The notes under the pieces are model-generated. The model was given only the letters and a program-made list of their open reading frames with translations. It searched no databases and was not told where the DNA came from. From an uncultured Sphingomonas sp. (GTDB taxonomy: Bacteria; Pseudomonadota; Alphaproteobacteria; Sphingomonadales; Sphingomonadaceae), in contig CAJYJW010000220.1 in NCBI GenBank assembly GCA_913775025.1, positions 1 to 42,152 of the forward strand: a stretch of DNA of 42,152 nucleotides, read 5' to 3'. Positions 2,945-13,673 of the stretch are shown here, piece after piece. Within the stretch, counting starts at the first letter, position 1, and every line of letters begins with the position of its first letter. A program made the translations under genes and the position numbers.

Positions 2945-3514
2945 ATGACGCTCGAAGGCAAGAAGATCGCAATCCTGATCGCCCCGCGCGGCACCGAGGA
3001 GCCGGAGTTCAGCAAGCCCAAGGCGGCAGTCGAGGAGGCTGGCGGCAGCGTGACGGTGATCGGGCTGGAGGCCGGCACCGCCGAGACGGTGAACAACGAT
3101 CTCGATCCCGGCGAAAAATTCACCGTCGACAAGGCGATTGGCGATGTTTCGGCGTCCGACTATGATGCGCTGATCATCCCCGGCGGCAGCGTCGGGGCGG
3201 ACAAGCTGCGAGGATCGAAGCAGGTCGTCGCCTTCGTCCATGATTTCTTCGCGCAGGAAAAGCCGGTCGCCGCCATCTGCCACGCGCCCTGGACGTTGAT
3301 CGAGGCGGACGTGGTGAAAGGCCGGACGCTCACTTCGTTCAAGACGGTGCAGACCGATATCCGCAACGCGGGCGGCACCTGGGTGGATCAGGAGGTCGTC
3401 GTCGACAAGGGCCTTGTCACCAGCCGCGATCCGGACGACCTGCCTGCCTTCTGCGCGAAGATCGTCGAGGAGTTCGGAGAGGGCAAGCACGCCGAGCAGG
3501 CCAAAAGCGCCTGA
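2945..3514 (+). CDS. PfpI/DJ-1 family type 1 glutamine amidotransferase-like protein
   Basis: 189 aa; MTLEGKKIAILIAPRGTEEPEF, DALIIPGGSVGADKLR and nucleophile elbow AAICHAPWTLIEADVVKGRTLTSF. Confidence 0.92.
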   Translation: MTLEGKKIAILIAPRGTEEPEFSKPKAAVEEAGGSVTVIGLEAGTAETVNNDLDPGEKFTVDKAIGDVSASDYDALIIPGGSVGADKLRGSKQVVAFVHDFFAQEKPVAAICHAPWTLIEADVVKGRTLTSFKTVQTDIRNAGGTWVDQEVVVDKGLVTSRDPDDLPAFCAKIVEEFGEGKHAEQAKSA

Positions 3515-3560: not shown

Positions 3561-4247
3561 TCAGACGCGATGGAGCCGTTCGCTATCCGCCGCGTCGAGT
3601 GCGGCCGACAGCGCCGCCCGCGAGCCGAACTGGAAGCCGATCTGCGAGGCATAGCATTCGCACATTTCCGCTTTGTCGGCCCGATCTTCTTCGCTCAGCA
3701 CATGGCGGCGAACCGGTTGCGCCACCGGGCGTCGATCCACCCGCGCGACGTAGGGCCAATCCTCCCACAGCAGCACGTCCGGTTTGGCCGCAAGCAGGGC
3801 GTCGCGCACCAGCCAATGATCGACATGATCGCCGATCGCCAGCGGCCCCAGCACAACATCGGCCGCGCTATCCTCCAACGCGTCGCGGAGGGCGGCGGCG
3901 AGCGCGGGCAGGATGCCATCCCCGGCATGGCGGCCGGCGAACAGAGCCGGTGCGCTGTCATACCCACGATGCGGCGCTTCCGGCAGCGGCAGGTGGATCG
4001 CCCGCGCGCCGATCACCGCGCAGGCGGCATCATCCTCCGCCCGGCGCAGCGCCATATAATCCACCTCCGGCCCGAGCCCCTTGTCCAGCTGGCAGGCGAG
4101 CGCGAAACCTGCCGGGTCGGGCATGGTGGCCGTGAAGCAGGTCACGATCGTCACCCGCCCGCCGCCGCGCGCATGGGCCGCCAGCATCCCGCCGATCGAG
4201 AAAGCCGCGTCGTCCAGATGGGGGGATACGGCGAGGATGTGGCTCAC
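3561..4247 (-). CDS. PIG-L/LmbE family deacetylase
   Basis: GTG start overlapping the GT4 stop (GTGA); VSHILAVSPHLDDAAFSIGGMLAAHARGGG and GDHVDHWLVRDALL match the PIG-L Zn-binding motifs. Confidence 0.9.
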   Translation of the reverse strand: MSHILAVSPHLDDAAFSIGGMLAAHARGGGRVTIVTCFTATMPDPAGFALACQLDKGLGPEVDYMALRRAEDDAACAVIGARAIHLPLPEAPHRGYDSAPALFAGRHAGDGILPALAAALRDALEDSAADVVLGPLAIGDHVDHWLVRDALLAAKPDVLLWEDWPYVARVDRRPVAQPVRRHVLSEEDRADKAEMCECYASQIGFQFGSRAALSAALDAADSERLHRV

Positions 4248-5452
4248 AGCAGATGCGGCTCGGCCCGGAAGCGGCATGGCGCGATCGGGATATGCGGATC
4301 GATCCCGGTTGCGGGCGCAGTGTCGCGGATCGCCTCGTAGATGCCCATGATCTGTGCGCCCACCGCATGCCAGCTATAGACGCGACGGCATTCCTCCAGC
4401 GCCGCCGCCGCCAGCCGATCGCGTAATGCCGCATCGGTGACGAGGCGGGTGAGCGCGGCGGCCTGCGCGGGAATGTCGCCCGCCTCCACCAGCAGACCGT
4501 TCTCGCCGTCGCGAATGCAATCCACCACGCCGACCGAGCGGCAGGAGAGGACCGCATGGCGGCAGGCCATCGCCTCCAGGATCGTGTTCGAAAAGCCTTC
4601 GGCATAGGTGGGGGAGACGAACACGTCGTGCTCGCGATACAATTCCGGCACGCGATCATAATCGGCATAGCCGGTGAAGGTCACGCGATCGCCCAGCCCC
4701 AGTTCGGCGCAAAGGGCCTGGGCGGGGCGGAAATCCGGGCCGATGCCGGAAACGGTGCAGCGCCAGTCCCCTTCGACGGCGGGCAAGGCGTGCAGCATGT
4801 CCAGCACGCCTTTTCGCCGATCGACGCGGCCGTGGTAGAACAGCCGCACCGGCCCGCCGGCATGACCCGCGCCGGGGACGAACCGTTCCGTATCCACGGC
4901 ACCCGGCACGATCGTGAACCGGTCCATCGGCGTGCCGAGGCGATCATGTACCTCGCCCGCGAAGCTCGTGCCGCCGATCAGCAGCGCGCCGGCATTGTCC
5001 AGCACACGCTCCATCGCGATGCGGTGCGTGTCGCAGCAGGAGCCGACCCAATGCCCGTCGCCGCCCTGAATCGAGACGACGCACGGCACCCCCAGCCGCT
5101 GCGCCGCCAGCAGGGTCGCCCAGCCGGTGGGGTAGCCATATTGAGCGTGCAGCACATCGAAGGGCGCGCGGGCATGTTCAGCCTCGATGGTAGCGATCAT
5201 CGCCGCCACGTCCGCCTCGAAATCGCCGCCGGCCTGCTCGCCCAGCGCCTCCAGTCCGATCACGCGTACGCCCGGCACCGGCGGGGGCGGGCCGCCGCCA
5301 TAAACCTTGGCGCGTTCGGGATCGCCGTAATATTGGCTCACCATCGTCACGTCATGCCCGCCCGCGACGAGCTGGCGCAGCAGGTTGATCGCATAGATCG
5401 ACATGCCGGAGATCGCGGGAAAGAAGCGGCGCGAAACGAAGCAGATCCTCAT
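4244..5452 (-). CDS. Glycosyltransferase family 4 protein
   Basis: MRICFVSRRFFPAISGMSIYAINLLRQLVAGGHDVTMVSQ; C-terminal domain LFYHGRVDRRKGVLDML and VSPTYAEGFSNTILEAMACRHAVL (EX7E motif). ATG overlaps the preceding stop (ATGA). Confidence 0.93.
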   Translation of the reverse strand: MRICFVSRRFFPAISGMSIYAINLLRQLVAGGHDVTMVSQYYGDPERAKVYGGGPPPPVPGVRVIGLEALGEQAGGDFEADVAAMIATIEAEHARAPFDVLHAQYGYPTGWATLLAAQRLGVPCVVSIQGGDGHWVGSCCDTHRIAMERVLDNAGALLIGGTSFAGEVHDRLGTPMDRFTIVPGAVDTERFVPGAGHAGGPVRLFYHGRVDRRKGVLDMLHALPAVEGDWRCTVSGIGPDFRPAQALCAELGLGDRVTFTGYADYDRVPELYREHDVFVSPTYAEGFSNTILEAMACRHAVLSCRSVGVVDCIRDGENGLLVEAGDIPAQAAALTRLVTDAALRDRLAAAALEECRRVYSWHAVGAQIMGIYEAIRDTAPATGIDPHIPIAPCRFRAEPHLL

Positions 5453-6279
5453 GCGGCGATCCCCCGCAGATAGGCGATGGCTTCCGGTATGGCGGCATGG
5501 GCGCGCGGGCTTTCCCGCGACAGTTCGACGCAGACGAGGCGGGAGAAGCCGATGGCGTTCAGCGCGGCCAGCACGGCGGGCACGTCCATGTCGCCCTGCC
5601 CGAATGGCAGATGGGTGTGATCGCCACGGCGCATGTCCTCCACCGCGACGGTGCCGATCCGCGCGGCATAGGCGCGGATCGCCTCGGCGGGGTCGATATC
5701 CTGGGTGACGAGGCAGTGGCCCGTATCCAGCGCCAGCCGCAGCCTGGGATGGCGGCGGGCGAGCGCGGCATAATCGGCAACCGTCTCGATCAGCATCCCC
5801 GGCTCCGGTTCGAAGCTGGCGTCCACGCCGCATGCTTCGGCATGGTCGAGGACGCGGGCCAGCCCCTCGTTCAGCCAGCGCAGCGCAGTGGCACGATCGA
5901 CCCCCGGCCTGGGCACGCCCGCCCAGAAGGAGATCGTTTCGCTCCCCAGCCGCCGCGCGACATCGAGCGCGCGACACAGGAAGGCGACACGGCGGGCGCG
6001 GGCCTCGCCATCGGGGTTGATGAGGGTCGGCTCATGCTTTTCACGCGGATCGAGCAGATAGCGCGCGCCCGTCTCGATCACGCTGGCGAGGCCCAGCCGG
6101 TCGAGCAGCGTAGCGACGCGATCCGCCTCGCGCTCCCAATCGTCGGCGAACGGATCGAGGTGATGATGGTCGAGCGTCAGCGCCACGCCATCATAGCCCG
6201 CGTCCGCGATCAGATGCAGCGCATCGTCCAGCCGGTGGTTGGCCGCGCCGTTGGTGTTGTAGGCGTAGCGCAATGTCAC
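5449..6279 (-). CDS. Sugar phosphate isomerase/epimerase family (TIM-barrel) protein
   Basis: 276 aa; AYDGVALTLDHHH-type beta-1, ASFEPEPGMLIETVADY, RLALDTGHCLVTQDIDP, GTVAVEDMRRGDHTHLPFGQGDMDVPAVLAAL. ATGA overlap with the YcaO stop. Confidence 0.88.
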   Translation of the reverse strand: MTLRYAYNTNGAANHRLDDALHLIADAGYDGVALTLDHHHLDPFADDWEREADRVATLLDRLGLASVIETGARYLLDPREKHEPTLINPDGEARARRVAFLCRALDVARRLGSETISFWAGVPRPGVDRATALRWLNEGLARVLDHAEACGVDASFEPEPGMLIETVADYAALARRHPRLRLALDTGHCLVTQDIDPAEAIRAYAARIGTVAVEDMRRGDHTHLPFGQGDMDVPAVLAALNAIGFSRLVCVELSRESPRAHAAIPEAIAYLRGIAA

Positions 6280-7763
6280 GCGGGCATCCCGCCGACGTGA
6301 TGCGCCTCCGGCTCGCGGTAGAGCGGATAAAGCGGGCCGACCAGCCGATCCGCCGCCGCCGTGTCGAACAGCGGCTCGTTCAGCCGGGCGCTGTCTTCGG
6401 GCGTCAGCCGGATGCGGCGCAGCGAAGCGCCCTCCCCGTCGCCGAAGCGGATCAGGGGGGAGTTCATCGCCAGCAGCTTCTCGGTATTGCGCGCGCCGAT
6501 GCGATAGTAGCTCATCGTCTCCACCTCCATCCCCGGCACGATCACCTTGACGACGCTGACCGCGCGGTCGGCGGGCGACATGTCGACGTACAGGATGTCG
6601 AACCCCGCCGCCTCCACCGCCTCGCGCGCCACCGCCGCGCGGGCGTGGCCATCGGGCGCGGGGCGGCTGGGCAGCGCGTCGAAGCGGCGGGTGCCGCGTT
6701 CGGACAGCACGTTATCGGCCAGCCAGCCGCGCAGGGTCGCGGCATCGCGGCGCGTCCAGTCACGCATGGCGTCAAAGGCGCGGCCGTCGCTCGATTTCGC
6801 CGCCCCGCCCGCCTGGGCGAGGAAGCGCGCGACATAGCCTTCGGGCGCGACCTGCGCGACGAGATCGGCCGGGCCGTGGGCGAAGGCCTTGCGCGCGCGG
6901 CTGGCGGCGAATTCGGTGAGGCACTTGTCGAGCGCGGCGGCGCGATCCGAATGGCACGCCTCGCCGCAGGCCGTCACCATGATCGGCGTGGCGGGCGCGG
7001 CGGCTTCATCCACGCCGACGCAATAGAGGTTGGGCAGGCCATATTGATCGGTCGCAAACTTGGGGATCGCGCGGATGCCGGCGGCGTCGAACCGATCGAG
7101 GATCGCGCGCGTGGAGGCCGGCAGATCGTTGCCGAGATCGAGAGTGACGCCGCGATCGAGCGCGCGGAACAGCAGGCCGTTGCCGTCGCGTTGCAAAATC
7201 TCGCACAGGCCATGGCCGATCGCCCAGTCGAGATCCGGCCCCGCCCCCATGCCGTTCGAGATGATCGTCGTGAACGGCTTGTAGCCGGGCGTCAGCTCCT
7301 TGGCGGAATAGGCCGCAAGATCGATCGGCACGAGCACGGTGGAGCCGTCCGCCCAGCGCCGCGCCTCCACCCATTCCAGTACCGTATCGCGCCCGACCGG
7401 CGATCCGGCGGGCAGGCAGAGCGTGAGCGGATCGGCGACCGAGCGGGCGCCCAACGTGCGGGCAAGCTCGGCATAGCTGCCGCGCGTCTTGGCGCGCGCG
7501 CCCAGCGTCAGCGTCGGCCACACCATCTCGGCGATCTCGCCCAGGCCGCCCAGCACCGCCGCCTCGTCCGTCGCGCCATAGCCGACGCCGTAGGGCATGA
7601 TGCCGGCAAGCGCCTCGTCCTCCGGGAACAGCGCCACAACCCACACCGGCAGGCCGAGACGGTCGAGCGGGTGTATCGGGAACGCCACCACGTCGCCCTT
7701 GGGGAAGGCATCGAGGTAGGCGTGGGCAGCCGCCCCCAGCCCTTGCGGCAGGCCGGACCTCAC
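6276..7763 (-). CDS. YcaO-like family protein
   Basis: GTG start overlapping the MBL stop. HPLDRLGLPVWVVALFPE, MPYGVGYGATDEAAVLGGLGEIAE, AIGHGLCEILQRDGNGLLFRA, TACGEACHSDRAAALDKCLTEFAASRARKAF and VVKVIVPGMEVETMSYYRIGARN occur in YcaO order. Confidence 0.88.
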   Translation of the reverse strand: MRSGLPQGLGAAAHAYLDAFPKGDVVAFPIHPLDRLGLPVWVVALFPEDEALAGIMPYGVGYGATDEAAVLGGLGEIAEMVWPTLTLGARAKTRGSYAELARTLGARSVADPLTLCLPAGSPVGRDTVLEWVEARRWADGSTVLVPIDLAAYSAKELTPGYKPFTTIISNGMGAGPDLDWAIGHGLCEILQRDGNGLLFRALDRGVTLDLGNDLPASTRAILDRFDAAGIRAIPKFATDQYGLPNLYCVGVDEAAAPATPIMVTACGEACHSDRAAALDKCLTEFAASRARKAFAHGPADLVAQVAPEGYVARFLAQAGGAAKSSDGRAFDAMRDWTRRDAATLRGWLADNVLSERGTRRFDALPSRPAPDGHARAAVAREAVEAAGFDILYVDMSPADRAVSVVKVIVPGMEVETMSYYRIGARNTEKLLAMNSPLIRFGDGEGASLRRIRLTPEDSARLNEPLFDTAAADRLVGPLYPLYREPEAHHVGGMPA

Positions 7764-8575
7764 AGCGCGATCCTCTTCACGCCGGGCGCGCGGGTGAGGC
7801 CCTCGTCCAGCGTGGCGAGCGCCACCGCACGGTTCACCTCGGGCGCATATTCGAAGGGGGTCAGCACCGCATCGAAATCGAGCGGGGCGATGACGTCGCG
7901 GTAACCGCGCAGTTCGGCGTGGGTCAGCGGAATATCCTTGTGAAAGGCCTTGTGGCTGGAAATGGCGTGACTGCGGCCGTCGGCATCCTGATCGACCTTG
8001 AACATGTCGCCGCAAAACAATCGCCGCCCGGGCGCGTCGTGCAGCACCGCCTGCCCCTCATAATGGCCGCCGACGTGGTGCAGCGTATAGCCGGGCGCGA
8101 GGTCGAGCGTGTCGTCGTAGGGCGCGGTGACGCGGAACGCCTTGGTCATGCTCAGGTCGTCGCGCTGGATCGCCACCACGGCGGGCTCGAATTCGCGCTG
8201 GAGCTGGAACAGCGCGCCATATCCATGCGCGTGGCTGGCCGCGAGAAACGATATGCCACCAAGCGCCGCGATCTTATCCAGCATCGCAACGGAGTAATAA
8301 GGTGCTGCCTCGAACGCGATATTGCCGCCGTCGCGCACGATCAGCCAGCCGGTGCCGGCAAGGCCCAGCGCGGGGCGCGTGGTGAATGCCCAGAGGCCGG
8401 GCGCTACTTCCCGTGCATCGCCCTCATGCGTCGCGGCGACCTCCGCCTCGGGCAGGAAGCGCCAGCCGTCTTCGGGCAAATCGTTGCGGACATCGGTGCA
8501 GACCGGGCAGTCCGGCGGCGCGAAATGGCGCTGCCAGAAACCGCAATTGGCGCAGGCGAACCATGTCAAAGGCAT
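7760..8575 (-). CDS. MBL-fold metallo-hydrolase with N-terminal CxxC-x(n)-CxxC (rubredoxin/zinc-ribbon-like) segment
   Basis: N-terminal FACANCGFWQRHFAPPDCPVC; MBL-like AASHAHGYGALFQLQ, HHVGGHYEGQAVLHDAPGRRLFCGDMFKV. Confidence 0.82.
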   Translation of the reverse strand: MPLTWFACANCGFWQRHFAPPDCPVCTDVRNDLPEDGWRFLPEAEVAATHEGDAREVAPGLWAFTTRPALGLAGTGWLIVRDGGNIAFEAAPYYSVAMLDKIAALGGISFLAASHAHGYGALFQLQREFEPAVVAIQRDDLSMTKAFRVTAPYDDTLDLAPGYTLHHVGGHYEGQAVLHDAPGRRLFCGDMFKVDQDADGRSHAISSHKAFHKDIPLTHAELRGYRDVIAPLDFDAVLTPFEYAPEVNRAVALATLDEGLTRAPGVKRIAL

Positions 8576-9561
8576 GAGCGGGCATCCCGATAGGCGCGGT
8601 CGAACAGCCGCATCAGCGCCAGATCGCGCGCCATGGAGAAATCATGCGCCTCCCCCCGCGCCGCCGCCATGAACGCCGCCGCTTGGGCGGTGAAAGGCGA
8701 GGTTTCGCCGTCGAAGGCGATCGGCGCGTCGTGGCCGGTCGTCGCGCAGCGGCGGGCAAGCGTGCCGCCCGCCGTCTGCCCCATCGTATCGGTGGCGATC
8801 AGCAGACCGCGCTCGCCCAGCACCTCAAGCCGGCGGCGAGGCAGCACCTCGGCGCAATTGTAGGCGACATGGCTCTGGAACAGCACGCCGGATGCGGAGC
8901 GTCCTGTCAGCATCCCGCCATCGTCCACCGGATAGGCGTGGATGCGGCGCTGAAGCGTGATCGACAGGTCGGCCAGCGGTTCGCCCAGCAACCGCTCGGA
9001 CAGATCGAGGCCGTGGAGGGCGAGGTCGATCACGGCGCCGCCGCCCGCGCGCGCCGGGTCGGCGCGCCAATTGTCGTGCGCCGCCCCGTTCGGCGACCAG
9101 GCGGGATCGACCCAGCAGGCATAGACGATCCGCACCGCCACCGGGCGGCCGATCTCGCCGCCGGCGATCGCCTCGGCCATCGCCCGGTGGGCGGGGTGGT
9201 GGCGCTGATCGAAGGCGGTGCCGTAGAGCGCCCCGCCCGATACCGCCTCCGCCATCGCTTCGGCCTGATCGAGCGTGGCGGCAATCGGTTTCTCGCACAG
9301 CACCGGCACGCCAGCCGCCGCCGCCGCGCGGACCGGTGCCAGATGCGCATCGTTCGGCGTGGCGACGTACAGCAGATCGCAGGCGCCGGCGTTCAGCATC
9401 GCCTCCACGCTGTCGAACGCCGCGATCCCTGCCGCATCGGCCTGCATGCGCGACGTGGGGGACGGATCGGCGATGGCCGCCACGGTGCCGCCCGAGGCGC
9501 GGATGGCGGGGGCCATATAATCACGCGCGACCCAGCCGTAGCCGGCGATGCCCCAGCGCAT
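8566..9561 (-). CDS. Gfo/Idh/MocA family oxidoreductase
   Basis: MRWGIAGYGWVARDYMAPAI (Rossmann), VATPNDAHLAPVRAAAAAGVPVLCEKPIAATLDQAEAM (CEKP motif). Start choice 9561 or 9567; 9561 gives a TGATG overlap. Confidence 0.94.
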   Translation of the reverse strand: MRWGIAGYGWVARDYMAPAIRASGGTVAAIADPSPTSRMQADAAGIAAFDSVEAMLNAGACDLLYVATPNDAHLAPVRAAAAAGVPVLCEKPIAATLDQAEAMAEAVSGGALYGTAFDQRHHPAHRAMAEAIAGGEIGRPVAVRIVYACWVDPAWSPNGAAHDNWRADPARAGGGAVIDLALHGLDLSERLLGEPLADLSITLQRRIHAYPVDDGGMLTGRSASGVLFQSHVAYNCAEVLPRRRLEVLGERGLLIATDTMGQTAGGTLARRCATTGHDAPIAFDGETSPFTAQAAAFMAAARGEAHDFSMARDLALMRLFDRAYRDARSCL

Positions 9562-10670
9562 CACCATCGTTCCGGCAGGTCGACAGTGCGGCGCAGGCGC
9601 GCGTCGGATACGGCGCCCGTCGCCTCGCGCGGCAAGGCCCAGAGGCAGCCGTCGCCATATTCGTCGCGATAGCGGGGCGAAGGCCAGATCGCGCCGTCCT
9701 CCCCCAGCAGCGGGTTGGGCCGCAGCGTTGCACTCTTAAGCGGCATGGCCAGGCCCCGCGATACGATATGCGGTGGTGCCCCGCGCCCCTCCACAAGCGA
9801 CCATGCCTCGATCCGGGGATCGTCGTGAAAGGAAGTAACGGTCGGGGCGACCTCGTCAATCAGCGCGTCGAACAGCGCGCGTTCGTCGTGCACCTGCGCA
9901 TCCGGAAACAGCGCGGCCCATTCGCCAGCGGTGCGTGCAGGGCCCTTCGCGCCGCCCTCCACGCCTGCGTTGTGCAGGTGGCTGATCGCCAGCACGCCGC
10001 CTGGCGCGGTCGCGGCGCGCAGGCGGGCGGCGACCTGCGCTTGACCGGGCAGGAAATAGAAGGCGTCGTGGCACATCACCAGATCGAAGCGATCGCCCGC
10101 GATCGGCCATCCGGCGGCGGCATCGAAAACCACATAGTCGGCGTCCGGCGCGACCCAGTTCTTCGCCAGCCAGCATTTGGCGAACACCACGTCCGCCCCC
10201 GTGCAAGAGACGCCGCGCCGGCCAAGCTCGCGCAGATAATGGCCGATGCCGCACGCCAGCTCGAACGCGCTGGCGGGCTCACTCCAATGCGCCTCCAGCA
10301 AAGCGAGCCCGGCGAGATAGGTCGGGTCGCTCCAGCGGTAGGCGAAATAATCGGCGACCGGCCCCAGCCGCAGCAACGCCATCGCCTCGCGCAGCGAAAG
10401 CGTGTCCCGCTCCCGCACCAGCCGCTTGAGTTCGGTCAGGTCGGTCGCGGGGCCGGTCCACCACGCATCCTGGTCGGTGAGCAGCGCGACGAGCGCGTCA
10501 TCCGGGCAGCCGGCGTCGAGATGATCGAGCGCGACCGCAACGAGCCCTTCGCTCTCCGTCCGCAGATAGGGGATGCCGTCGATCACCGGCCACCGCTCCC
10601 CCGGGGCGGCGAGCGAATGCGGCGTGTCCGCCACCAGTAGCCGGCCGGTCAGCGGAGACCGCAACGTCAT
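9561..10670 (-). CDS. Class I SAM-dependent methyltransferase with N-terminal Trm112-like segment
   Basis: MTLRSPLTGRLLVADTPHSLAAPGERWPVIDGIPYLR then FELACGIGHYLRELGRRGVSCTGADVV (motif I) and FDLVMCHDAFYFLPGQAQVAARLRAATAPGGVLAISHLHN. ATGA overlap with the upstream gene. Confidence 0.88.
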   Translation of the reverse strand: MTLRSPLTGRLLVADTPHSLAAPGERWPVIDGIPYLRTESEGLVAVALDHLDAGCPDDALVALLTDQDAWWTGPATDLTELKRLVRERDTLSLREAMALLRLGPVADYFAYRWSDPTYLAGLALLEAHWSEPASAFELACGIGHYLRELGRRGVSCTGADVVFAKCWLAKNWVAPDADYVVFDAAAGWPIAGDRFDLVMCHDAFYFLPGQAQVAARLRAATAPGGVLAISHLHNAGVEGGAKGPARTAGEWAALFPDAQVHDERALFDALIDEVAPTVTSFHDDPRIEAWSLVEGRGAPPHIVSRGLAMPLKSATLRPNPLLGEDGAIWPSPRYRDEYGDGCLWALPREATGAVSDARLRRTVDLPERW

Positions 10671-11605
10671 GCCAGCCCGGCGTCGGCGAGAATGCGGTCG
10701 TGGAACGCCTTGACCGGACCGTCGTGGACCAGCCCGTAATCGTCGAGCACGATCCCCATCGTCAGGCGGGCGGCGCGGGTGTGCTGCTCGATCTCCAGCA
10801 CGCGATCGATCACGTCGCCGGTGTGGAAGGCACGCGCCTCCGCCGTCTCGTCCCCACCGATCGGGGCCAGCGCGGCATCGAGGCGCGCGGTGAGCGCGGG
10901 GTTCATTGCGGTCACCTCGGCCATGCTGAGGCGACGCGCCTCTTCGATCACGGGGGCCAGCCAATCGCCCAGCAGCATCTCGCCCGAATAGCCGCTGTCC
11001 GGCATGTCCGCGCTGTGCAGGTGATGCGCCATGCCGGCGAGGAACACCTCCACCGGGTCCGCGCCGTGCCAGCCGCAGGCAAGCACACCATATACCGCAA
11101 CGATCAGGCAATGCTCGGCGTGGTTTTCGGCCGGTTGCAGCATGATGCGCGGCTGGCCGGGGCAGGTCACCCCCGCGCGCGGCTGCCGCGCCAGCTTGTC
11201 GACGAAGGCAGGCACCGCCCCCGCCGCCGGCCGGCCGAGCGGCAAGGCCGCGCGCAGCCGGGCGGCAAGCGCGGGATCGAGCGTGTCGGCCACCTCATCG
11301 AACGCGCGCTCCAGCACCGCGACCGCGCCTTTGCCCGCGCCCAGCGCCGTCAGCGTCGCCAGATCGAGATCGCCCAGCCGCGCCGAGACGATCGCCGAGG
11401 CGACCACCTGCGCCATCACCGTCTCCGGCGCATCCCCGCGCGCCAGCGCCGCCCAGCCGAGCACGAACAGCCGCTCCGCAATCGACCCCGCCCCTTGCGC
11501 CGAATATACCCGCTTCAGATCCCCCAGCTCGCGCAGGAACGGGAGCGCCGCCGGCGAAAGGCCGGCGGCCGCGGTGGCGATTTCGGACGGGGCCGCCGGG
11601 GTCAC
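10667..11605 (-). CDS. HD-domain-like protein of unknown function (312 aa)
   Basis: GTG start overlapping the inositol-3-phosphate synthase stop (GTGA). Helical; PAENHAEHCLIVAVYGVLACGWHGADPVEVFLAGMAHHLHSADMPDSGYSGEMLLGDWL resembles an HD superfamily metal-binding core with HH in place of HD. Confidence 0.6.
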   Translation of the reverse strand: MTPAAPSEIATAAAGLSPAALPFLRELGDLKRVYSAQGAGSIAERLFVLGWAALARGDAPETVMAQVVASAIVSARLGDLDLATLTALGAGKGAVAVLERAFDEVADTLDPALAARLRAALPLGRPAAGAVPAFVDKLARQPRAGVTCPGQPRIMLQPAENHAEHCLIVAVYGVLACGWHGADPVEVFLAGMAHHLHSADMPDSGYSGEMLLGDWLAPVIEEARRLSMAEVTAMNPALTARLDAALAPIGGDETAEARAFHTGDVIDRVLEIEQHTRAARLTMGIVLDDYGLVHDGPVKAFHDRILADAGLA

Positions 11606-12780
11606 GCGCGCTTGCCGCCCAGCCACGTATCCAGGATTAGCTGCTGCTCGGGGAAGCTGTGCACAGGCTCGCCGCCCTTCGTTTGCGGCAGCTTGAAGAA
11701 CAGGCCCATCTGCTCCTGCACACCGCCCTCGCCGCGCTGCTTGGCCAGATCGAGGCACCGCGCGATCTCGATCGCGAGCGGCGCGGCCAGGATCGAGTCC
11801 TTGCACAGGAAGTTCAGCTTGAGCTGCATCTTCTGGCCCATAAAGCCGGTGAGATCGATATTGTCCCACGCTTCCTTGTCGTCGCCACGCGGGCGGTAAT
11901 AATGGATCATCACGATATGATCCTCCACCGGATAGCCGAGGATCGAGTTCAGCACGCTGCCCTTGGTGCCGAGCTTCGACTGCAGCGACTTCGGATCGTC
12001 GAGCGCGAGCCCGTCCGAATTGCCGAGGATGTTGGTGGAGAACCAGCCGTCCACATGCAGCGCGCGATCGCGCAGCGCGGGCGCGATCACGGTCTTCATG
12101 AACGTCTGCCCGGTCTTGCCGTCCTTGCCGGCCACGGGCACGTTCCGCTCCGCCGCGAAATCCGCCAGCGGCGCGATGTCCGCCGCCACGGAAGGCGTGA
12201 AGTTGGCGTAGGGCGTGTCCGCGTCGATCGCCGCATAGGCATAGAGCATCGCCGGGCTGATCGCGGCATCGTCCTCGTCCAGCCCGCGCTCGAACGCCTC
12301 GCGCGATCGCAGCGCCGCGTCGCCGGCGTTCGGCACCCGCTCGGTGGAGGCGAGGTTGACGACGACGACGCGATCGAGCGACTTTTCCTCGCGGAAGCGG
12401 CGCAGATCGTCCTGAATCTGCTTCACCACGCCGCGATGGCCGCCCTCCAGCTTGTTGCTGCCGTCGATGTTGGCGCAATAGCCGGTGCTGCCGGCCGCCT
12501 TCCACGGCCGCATGTCGTTCAGCGCCGCGGCGCCGTCGGCCAATTCCGCCTTGCCGATCACGCCATGGCGCAGCGCGCAATCGCCCAGCGTATCGCCGGT
12601 CAGATCCCAGCCGCCGAACACGATGTCGCGATAGGGCACCATGCCCGCCACGTCACGATCGGCCAGCGGCAGCCCATCGAGGCTGTTGGAGCCCGCCTTG
12701 ATCATCTCGATCCCGGCGATGGCGGTGGTGGCGACCGCCCCGCCCACGCCCACGATCGCCACGCCCAGCCGTTCCGCCAT
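11602..12780 (-). CDS. ino1: Inositol-3-phosphate synthase (MIPS)
   Basis: 392 aa; LGVAIVGVGGAVATTAIAGIEM, DIVFGGWDLTGDTL, GSTGYCANIDGSNKLEGGH, SVAADIAPLADFAAERNVPVAGKDGKTGQTFMKTVIAPAL, STNILGNSDGLALDDPKSLQSKLGTKGSVLN are diagnostic. Confidence 0.95.
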   Translation of the reverse strand: MAERLGVAIVGVGGAVATTAIAGIEMIKAGSNSLDGLPLADRDVAGMVPYRDIVFGGWDLTGDTLGDCALRHGVIGKAELADGAAALNDMRPWKAAGSTGYCANIDGSNKLEGGHRGVVKQIQDDLRRFREEKSLDRVVVVNLASTERVPNAGDAALRSREAFERGLDEDDAAISPAMLYAYAAIDADTPYANFTPSVAADIAPLADFAAERNVPVAGKDGKTGQTFMKTVIAPALRDRALHVDGWFSTNILGNSDGLALDDPKSLQSKLGTKGSVLNSILGYPVEDHIVMIHYYRPRGDDKEAWDNIDLTGFMGQKMQLKLNFLCKDSILAAPLAIEIARCLDLAKQRGEGGVQEQMGLFFKLPQTKGGEPVHSFPEQQLILDTWLGGKRA

Positions 12781-12890: not shown

Positions 12891-13673
12891 TTACATATGT
12901 GCGCGCTCTGGCGCGGGCGAATGATCCACATCATCCGGCGTGCCGGTCGGCGGCAGCCAGTCGGTGGCGATCTCGCCATGACGATCGGTGAAGTCGACCA
13001 TCGCCGCCAGCCGATCGACATCGTTGATGCGGATGATCCTGCCGGTACGCTCGACCAGTCCGGTCTCCGTCAACGCCTTCAACGATCGACTGACGTGCGT
13101 TTTCGTCAATCCCACCGCATCGCCCAGATCCTGCTGCGTCAGCGGTAGCTCGAAGCTGGAGCCGTTCAGCCCGTCCACCACTCGCAGCCGGGCCCGGATA
13201 TCGAGCAGCAACGTGGCGATACGGGTGAAACCGTCCGTCCGCCCGACCGAGGTCAGCCGTTCCGCCATGGAAACCTGTTCCGAAGCGCCCACCGCATAGA
13301 GCAGTGCCCCCAGCCGGGGGTGGCTACGGAACAACCGCCCGAAGGCGGGCTTCGGTATCTCCAGCAAGGTGGCGTTGCTGACGGCGCGCAACGTCGCCGC
13401 GCTATACCCCCAAGCGATCGAGAAGGTCGTCGTGATGTCACCGACGAAGTAAAAGCGCAGGATCTGTCGCCCACCGTCCTTCAGCCGCACCGATCCATGT
13501 AACCAGCCGCTGGCGACGACATAGAGCTTGTCGATCTCCGCCCCTTCCTCGACCACGATATCGCCGGCGCGAAAGGCGCGCTCACGCCGTTCCAGCCGGC
13601 GCAGCGCATCCCGTTCCGCATAGGTGAGGGCGAGGTGGCGCGAGAGGCGGGTTTCCAGCGGGCTGTCATGCAT
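12891..13673 (-). CDS. Crp/Fnr family transcriptional regulator
   Basis: cNMP-like domain (RAGDIVVEEGAEIDKLYVVASGWLHGSVRLKDGGRQILRFYFVGDIT) and C-terminal HTH LTQQDLGDAVGLTKTHVSRSLKALTETGLVER. Confidence 0.94.
   Translation of the reverse strand: MHDSPLETRLSRHLALTYAERDALRRLERRERAFRAGDIVVEEGAEIDKLYVVASGWLHGSVRLKDGGRQILRFYFVGDITTTFSIAWGYSAATLRAVSNATLLEIPKPAFGRLFRSHPRLGALLYAVGASEQVSMAERLTSVGRTDGFTRIATLLLDIRARLRVVDGLNGSSFELPLTQQDLGDAVGLTKTHVSRSLKALTETGLVERTGRIIRINDVDRLAAMVDFTDRHGEIATDWLPPTGTPDDVDHSPAPERAHM

Follow-up and report, generated by a model that had tools for sequence, protein, structure and literature searches.

A conserved nine-gene operon with inositol-phosphate synthase, YcaO, GT4 and PIG-L genes in leaf-, air- and light-exposed bacteria: a candidate pathway for a cyclitol-derived small molecule

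Results

An operon of nine overlapping genes

The DNA stretch analysed here (the window) comprises 42,152 nucleotides (nt) of contig CAJYJW010000220.1 from an uncultured Sphingomonas sp. (assembly GCA_913775025.1). Its minus strand carries, from position 12780 to 3561, an operon of nine genes, here termed A to I. The first of these encodes a myo-inositol-phosphate synthase (MIPS; A, 11602-12780, 392 amino acids (aa), PF07994 E 8e-53 and PF01658 E 6e-33), which is followed by an HD-domain-fold protein (B, 10667-11605, 312 aa, assigned with a structural model), a methyltransferase dependent on S-adenosylmethionine (C, 9561-10670, 369 aa, PF08241 E 1e-9), a Gfo/Idh/MocA-type NAD(P)-dependent oxidoreductase (D, 8566-9567, 333 aa, PF01408 E 2e-22 and PF22725 E 6e-22) and a zinc-ribbon protein with a metallo-beta-lactamase fold (E, 7760-8575, 271 aa, PF00753 E 0.0017). 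The distal part encodes a YcaO-family ATP-dependent enzyme (F, 6276-7763, 495 aa, PF02624 E 8e-50, 170 bits), a xylose-isomerase-like TIM barrel of the AP_endonuc_2 family (G, 5449-6279, 276 aa, PF01261 E 5e-42) and, as the two 3'-most genes, a GT4 glycosyltransferase (H, 4244-5452, 402 aa, PF00534 E 2e-32) and a PIG-L family N-deacetylase with a GTG start (I, 3561-4247, 228 aa, PF02585 E 9e-14). Pfam thus assigns a family to eight of the nine proteins, with the match of E lying under the Pfam cut-off, and neither Pfam nor NCBIfam searches returned one for B. All adjacent open reading frames (ORFs) of the operon overlap by 4-10 nt, which suggests a single transcript with translational coupling. 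MIPS and YcaO are each present in single copy in the genome.

Conservation as a unit

Since B has no Pfam or NCBIfam family, it was used as the marker of the operon. Relatives were collected by a profile scan with one genome per species, which gave 178 matches, and 80 loci were fetched. In all fetched loci that are complete, i.e. not truncated at a contig end, the genes stand on one strand in the order A-B-C-D-(E)-F-G-H-I, an arrangement that excludes chance. Over 73 loci, the pairwise distance matrices for eight of the genes show correlations of 0.82-0.94, so that the genes of the operon are inherited jointly. Residues for catalysis and metal binding do not vary among 75-84 copies (37 copies in the case of E). 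A preceding sequence-only reading of this DNA had tied MIPS, GT4 and PIG-L to the YcaO gene, and this co-inheritance bears it out; it had left the HD-fold protein as well as the methyltransferase, Gfo/Idh/MocA, metallo-beta-lactamase-fold and TIM-barrel genes unnamed as parts of the system. Methylobacterium operons are without E, and a homologue of E (44-49%) is encoded elsewhere in 21/21 genomes tested, including the operon-free genome G863. The copy on a Hymenobacter volaticus plasmid (L018, 10585-19286) is without C and shows D and H each in two blast pieces, which reflects either decay or sequencing errors; a separate BshB1 gene adjoins this copy on the opposite strand.

Properties of the encoded proteins

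In the PDB, A is closest to 7nwr (E 3e-78), an inositol-3-phosphate synthase of another branch, and matches the mycobacterial 1gr0 at E 8e-10. The AlphaFold2 (AF2) model of B has a pLDDT of 89.3, and its residues 129-312 align by VIA-align with HDDC2, PH0347 and the 5'-deoxynucleotidase YfbR at Z 12-13, which falls in the range reachable by chance for mostly helical models; nevertheless, the histidines and aspartates typical of HD proteins do not vary across homologues (H162, E164, H165, H194, H195, H261, D264 and D267). A Foldseek search gave no match for B at E 0.001. Judging by this model, B probably has an HD phosphohydrolase fold and may be a phosphatase for an inositol phosphate, a role assigned to it because the pathway would need removal of a phosphate after MIPS.

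In D, K93, D181 and H185 are invariant, and its closest solved relative is a 1,5-anhydro-D-fructose reductase (E 1e-56), with inositol dehydrogenases at E 3e-22 and weaker; an assignment as IolG was rejected on these grounds together with a score of 82.5 bits against a cut-off of 355. E carries zinc-ribbon cysteines (C8, C11, C23 and C26), and its key residues are invariant in the 37 copies. For G, the AF2 model (pLDDT 91.6) matches sugar 3-epimerases, the Art22 isomerase and xylose isomerase all at Z 27-31, which is consistent with an isomerase, epimerase or dehydratase that would act on a keto-sugar or an inosose. A more specific assignment of G as inosose dehydratase (IolE) was dropped, since its sequence support is poor (28.6 bits, cut-off 290; E 7e-7) and the fold does not discriminate. 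The YcaO domain of F lies above the Pfam cut-off, its E76, E79 and E188 are invariant, and its closest solved structure is MJ1094 (6pe3, E 6e-23). F ends in YREPEAHHVGGMPA, i.e. without PxPxP, and scores 97.9 bits with a SagD-like model that has a cut-off of 219.

The nearest solved relatives of H are 6kih, BshA (5d00), 7qsg and MshA (3c48), all of them remote, with 6kih, BshA and MshA at about equal distance. R209, K214, E285 and E293 are invariant in about 75 homologues. H also has invariant motifs of its own, e.g. GGDGHWVGSCC and HAQYGYPTG. In a similar number of homologues of I (about 75), H10, D12, D13, H141, D143 and H144 are invariant. In profile comparisons I matches the Dbv21/Orf2 glycopeptide pseudoaglycone deacetylases at E 6e-33, MshB (1q74/4ewl) at 2e-3 and BshB at 0.03, and by its sequence it clearly sits in the branch of Dbv21 and teicoplanin Orf2, whose substrate for deacetylation is GlcNAc on an aglycone.

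The thiol parallel

The sequence-only reading had drawn a parallel between MIPS, GT4 and PIG-L and the opening steps of mycothiol biosynthesis. The genes are indeed as it described them, with GT4 at 5452-4244, PIG-L at 4247-3561 and, outside the 3561-5452 segment on which it focused, MIPS at 12780-11602 in the same operon. Its motifs also recur as quoted, i.e. EGFSNTILE at residues 285-293 of GT4 and PHLDD and DHVDH at residues 9-13 and 140-144 of PIG-L. The parallel itself holds for the enzyme classes but not for the families, as all three proteins lie far under the Msh and Bsh cut-offs: A scores 40.7 bits on the mycothiol-type INO1 model TIGR03450 (cut-off 638), H reaches 86.1 bits on the MshA model TIGR03449 (cut-off 462.5) and 75.7 on that of BshA (273.7), and I has 19.9 of the 195 bits needed for BshB2 and 16.7 of 182.5 for BshB1.

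The absence of an MshC- or BshC-like ligase, which that reading had noted for the operon, extends to the genome. BshC (PF10079) is absent, and the sole match of the MshC model has 177.6 bits against a cut-off of 485.1; as this model also matches in 14/14 control genomes, the protein in question is taken to be cysteinyl-tRNA synthetase. Pfam searches of the operon proteins likewise confirmed that no GNAT is encoded within the operon, with no MshD search having been made elsewhere in the genome. The suggestion of a glucosaminyl-cyclitol intermediate that is diverted to a YcaO-dependent product is retained here as a reasonable one.

Distribution among bacteria

The operon is common to leaf-, air- and light-exposed bacteria of three phyla. 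Its hosts are Sphingomonas and relatives, Erythrobacter-type genera, Methylobacterium/Methylorubrum, Roseomonas and other Acetobacteraceae, metagenome-assembled genomes of Caulobacteraceae and of lichen Rhizobiales, Hymenobacter (Bacteroidota) and one Mycobacterium, and many matches carry a 'Leaf' isolate or a lichen strain in their record title. In Methylobacterium it almost amounts to a core trait, with B being found in 108/111 species of this genus versus 3/385 genomes sampled across the class (our own genome counted); as a check of genus identity, five loci were compared at the DNA level and matched named Methylobacterium loci at 94-100%, three of them with 100% identity. One of the three operon-free Methylobacterium genomes (G869) is that of M. 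nodulans ORS 2060 (100% DNA identity over 12 kb), a root-nodule symbiont, and in the operon-free G888 some stretches match plasmid DNA of M. nodulans at about 82% identity. Among Sphingomonadaceae, 13/199 genomes have the B marker, two of these as fragments only. The marker also occurs in four plasmid records (two from Methylobacterium, one each from Roseomonas and Hymenobacter), and the operon is found on large Methylobacterium replicons as well.

In Mycobacterium sp. MYCO198283 (L038, 8820-18023), all nine genes lie between WXG100-type genes and an apparent rplM-rpsI-glmM group (by inspection). With these mycobacterial-type flanks the record looks genuinely mycobacterial; flanks and operon have the same GC content of 0.73, and among YcaO proteins the one from Sphingomonas lenta is closest (75%). 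To judge from these sequences, the locus apparently represents a real transfer across phyla into an actinobacterium.

Upstream motifs and neighbouring genes

Motifs were counted against first-order Markov shuffles in 44 Methylobacterium and 35 sphingomonad-type upstream regions, with the reservation that these loci share descent, so that the counts overstate independence. Methylobacterium upstream regions show little conservation beyond a few blocks, chiefly GGAAC-N18-TT, which we take to be the pattern typical of the alphaproteobacterial general-stress sigma factor (EcfG/PhyR). It is present in 41/44 regions (shuffle mean 0.83, maximum 6), mostly as GGAAC-N16-AGTT about 110-130 nt 5' of MIPS and oriented toward it. 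The alphaproteobacterial LexA (SOS-type) pattern GTTC-N7-GTTC, with variable inner bases, occurs in 17/44 regions (shuffle mean 0.27) and is located in a divergent intergenic region.

In the window, a gene for a Crp/Fnr-type regulator lies directly 5' of the operon in the same direction (12891-13673, minus strand; HTH_Crp_2 E 2e-17, cNMP_binding E 5e-14), and within its 3' end, 153 nt 5' of MIPS, is a candidate Crp-type operator, TGATGTGGATCA (12922-12933, minus strand). Counting the window, such a regulator stands just upstream of the operon in 19 sphingomonad-type loci. Palindromes like TGACATAGGTCA were found at 25 sites in 19/35 sphingomonad-type upstream regions (shuffle mean 0.12, maximum 2), in some regions as pairs about 31 nt apart, and in none of the Methylobacterium ones.

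The wider surroundings differ between hosts. On plasmid p546-2 of Roseomonas haemaphysalidis (L017, 15-23713), the operon lies among uvsE and two genes of the spore-photoproduct-lyase family, so that this region is possibly a UV-survival island; spore-photoproduct-lyase neighbours were seen in Roseomonas alone. In the same plasmid, a gene for an MdoH-like glucosyltransferase stands directly 3' of PIG-L. In Methylobacterium (L066 and about 39 other loci), the co-directional gene after PIG-L reads by inspection as a member of the uracil-DNA glycosylase family, and is followed by genes for a YbhN/LPG-synthase-like membrane protein and a PhoR-like histidine kinase (likewise by inspection).

Other features of the window were read by inspection. 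On the plus strand, the segments 1-2777 and 2945-3514 hold a TonB-receptor-like ORF, followed by a gene for a PepSY-like membrane protein, and one for a DJ-1/PfpI-like protein just past where the operon ends. The segment 15509-19859 of the minus strand encodes an efflux set of outer-membrane efflux protein, HlyD-type adaptor and major facilitator superfamily (MFS) transporter; related HlyD and MFS genes are also found upstream of about 20 Methylobacterium-type operons, so that their co-location with the operon may be non-random.

Discussion

An important question is what a set of genes so strictly kept together produces. A co-linear unit in all complete fetched loci, invariant catalytic residues and the presence of just one MIPS and one YcaO in this genome make it very probable that the operon is a biosynthetic pathway for a small molecule derived from inositol and glucosamine. 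In the pathway that we propose, from its individual reactions to the chromophore and the identity of the product, MIPS would generate inositol phosphate from glucose-6-phosphate, from which the HD-fold protein B would strip the phosphate, and the oxidoreductase D would form a keto-cyclitol or keto-sugar. The TIM-barrel protein G might then carry out an isomerization or dehydration toward a conjugated enolone or dione, to be methylated by C, and the YcaO protein could drive the condensation of a carbonyl with an amine at the expense of ATP, i.e. take the role that ATP-grasp ligases have in the synthesis of mycosporine-like amino acids. GT4 would add N-acetylglucosamine, which PIG-L would deacetylate to free glucosamine, just as Dbv21 acts on glycopeptide pseudoaglycones. 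The predicted result is a cyclitol ring that is conjugated, methylated and condensed with an amine and that bears a free glucosamine, i.e. a polar and UV-absorbing compound.

This proposed chemistry resembles that of known systems only in part. With the mycosporine-like amino acid pathway (DDGS/EEVS, O-methyltransferase and ATP-grasp ligase) it would share the logic of a sugar-derived cyclohexenone, O-methylation and ATP-driven amine condensation, whereas the ring would stem from MIPS rather than from a sedoheptulose cyclase, YcaO would stand in for the ATP-grasp ligase, and GT4 and PIG-L come in addition; neither a DDGS/EEVS sugar-phosphate cyclase nor an ATP-grasp ligase is among the operon proteins. 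PIG-L belongs with the Dbv21 and teicoplanin Orf2 deacetylases, but the operon includes no glycopeptide assembly line and its host is an alphaproteobacterium. MJ1094, a standalone YcaO of the McrA thioamidation type, is the closest solved relative of F, yet F has a longer C-terminal part and an invariant glutamine at an ATP-site position discussed below, and the operon encodes neither TfuA nor another partner.

As to the product itself, an ultraviolet A (UVA) screen, i.e. an inositol-derived, glucosaminylated and YcaO-condensed small molecule that in Methylobacterium would probably be methylobamine, has in our estimate slightly less than an even chance. Methylobacterium is a source genus of UVA-absorbing compounds according to passages in PMC9664959 and PMC12573535 that cite Yoshida et al. 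2017, and methylobamine is a UVA absorber from this genus according to a passage in PMC9664959 that cites Kamo et al. 2018; nearly all species of this same genus have the operon, and the nodule species M. nodulans lacks it. Further arguments for a UVA screen are the stress-type and SOS-type motifs upstream of the Methylobacterium operons, the spore-photoproduct-lyase-family and uvsE genes around the Roseomonas copy, the uracil-DNA glycosylase-like gene next to the operon in Methylobacterium and the many matches from 'Leaf' isolates or lichen strains. In the open-access literature, with most subscription papers and preprints lying outside the search, we found no description of genes for methylobamine or the UVA-absorbing compounds, no report of YcaO and inositol-3-phosphate synthase in one gene cluster and no report linking YcaO to Methylobacterium UV compounds; the single paper there to combine YcaO with Methylobacterium (PMC8776678) describes a YcaO cluster in Roseomonas mucosa and is unrelated.

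Several observations weigh against a UVA screen or the steps proposed for it. The EcfG- and SOS-type motifs point to stress control and not to UV screening, their counts come from related and thus non-independent Methylobacterium loci, and the textbook EcfG -10 form CGTT occurs in 0/44 of these regions, where the -10 elements are AGTT or CATT. The conserved unit includes neither an exporter nor a UV sensor. At the level of single enzymes, inositol dehydrogenase is a more distant relative of D than 1,5-anhydrofructose reductase is, the fold comparison for G singles out no dehydratase, and F has Gln191 in 77/77 copies at the position of the second glutamate of the ATP-site ExxE motif in MJ1094 and LynD, a family-specific exchange that may change metal or phosphate handling. 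The operon is present in only about 6% of Sphingomonadaceae, and a link with anoxygenic photosynthesis had to be rejected for this family, as there was no tie to photosynthesis genes (0/11 operon carriers versus 34/188, p 0.22). Moreover, Yoshida's compound, reportedly of high polarity and with a spectrum like that of avobenzone, is reported to have been found in Methylobacterium alone among 200 leaf isolates, and such Methylobacterium-only production fits uneasily with operon-bearing leaf Sphingomonas.

The same operon and building blocks could also yield a product that is not a light screen, such as an aminocyclitol-glycoside antibiotic, a signal, a drying protectant or a redox cofactor, with YcaO possibly forming an amidine, thioamide or amide. 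We consider this a serious possibility, if one that falls well short of an even chance: the enzyme set suits any glucosaminyl-cyclitol, kasugamycin-type compounds combine inositol with a GlcNAc-derived sugar, amidine and thioamide formation is classic YcaO chemistry, and stress promoters are equally compatible with drying or oxidative stress. However, no known pathway fits, and an antibiotic in particular is disfavoured by the near-universal presence of the operon in a genus and by flanks in which no transporter or resistance gene is conserved throughout. That the product is a glucosaminyl-inositol head group, be it for a membrane lipid or for a cell-envelope glycan, seems improbable; PIG-L and GT4 classes do operate in the assembly of glycosylphosphatidylinositol (GPI)-type structures and phosphatidylinositol mannosides, and a YbhN/LPG-synthase-like membrane protein is encoded downstream in Methylobacterium, but this gene is conserved in Methylobacterium only, the operon provides no phosphatidylinositol-type synthase or lipid-linked step, and the YcaO, methyltransferase and TIM-barrel genes would be left unexplained.

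Two further alternatives appear very improbable. The presence of MIPS, GT4 and PIG-L classes in one operon, which it shares with mycothiol biosynthesis (INO1, MshA, MshB, MshC and MshD), would suit a low-molecular-weight thiol of the mycothiol or bacillithiol type made with an unrecognized ligase. Yet the three enzymes stand outside the Msh families, with scores far under the curated cut-offs and PIG-L in the Dbv21/Orf2 branch, the genome is without BshC and MshC, and six further conserved genes including YcaO accompany the triad; in addition, the Hymenobacter operon adjoins a BshB1 gene of its own, and the operon also occurs in Mycobacterium, a genus expected to make mycothiol regardless. For these reasons we rejected a thiol pathway. 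Equally hard to credit is a sugar-decorated ribosomal peptide carrying a YcaO-made linear azoline or thioamide, as suggested by the YcaO domain and its SagD-like score. This score is below the SagD cut-off, however, and what removed this reading from consideration as the leading one was the lack of any E1-like, ThiF or TfuA partner in the operon and of a PxPxP C-terminus; besides, the overlapping ORFs of the operon leave no room for a precursor gene (in the window, where flanking short ORFs were not examined), and a dedicated MIPS would be superfluous for a peptide route.

Overall, the operon looks like an undescribed pathway. Taken to its full extent, the UVA-screen proposal would make it the first locus for a bacterial UVA screen built from myo-inositol rather than from sedoheptulose phosphate, in which a YcaO protein acting on a non-peptidic cyclitol enolone replaces the ATP-grasp ligase, i.e. 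the methylobamine pathway, as a cassette spread over three phyla of sun-exposed bacteria; in this complete form we put it forward tentatively and regard it as rather unlikely. If true, a natural orphan sunscreen made by one of the main leaf-colonizing genera would be matched with its genes, water-soluble UV filters would be seen to arise by a second biochemical route, and YcaO chemistry would be widened from peptides to a small-molecule substrate. Even without a role in UV screening, an undescribed nine-gene operon that is near-core in Methylobacterium and mobile across phyla is a clear target for study.

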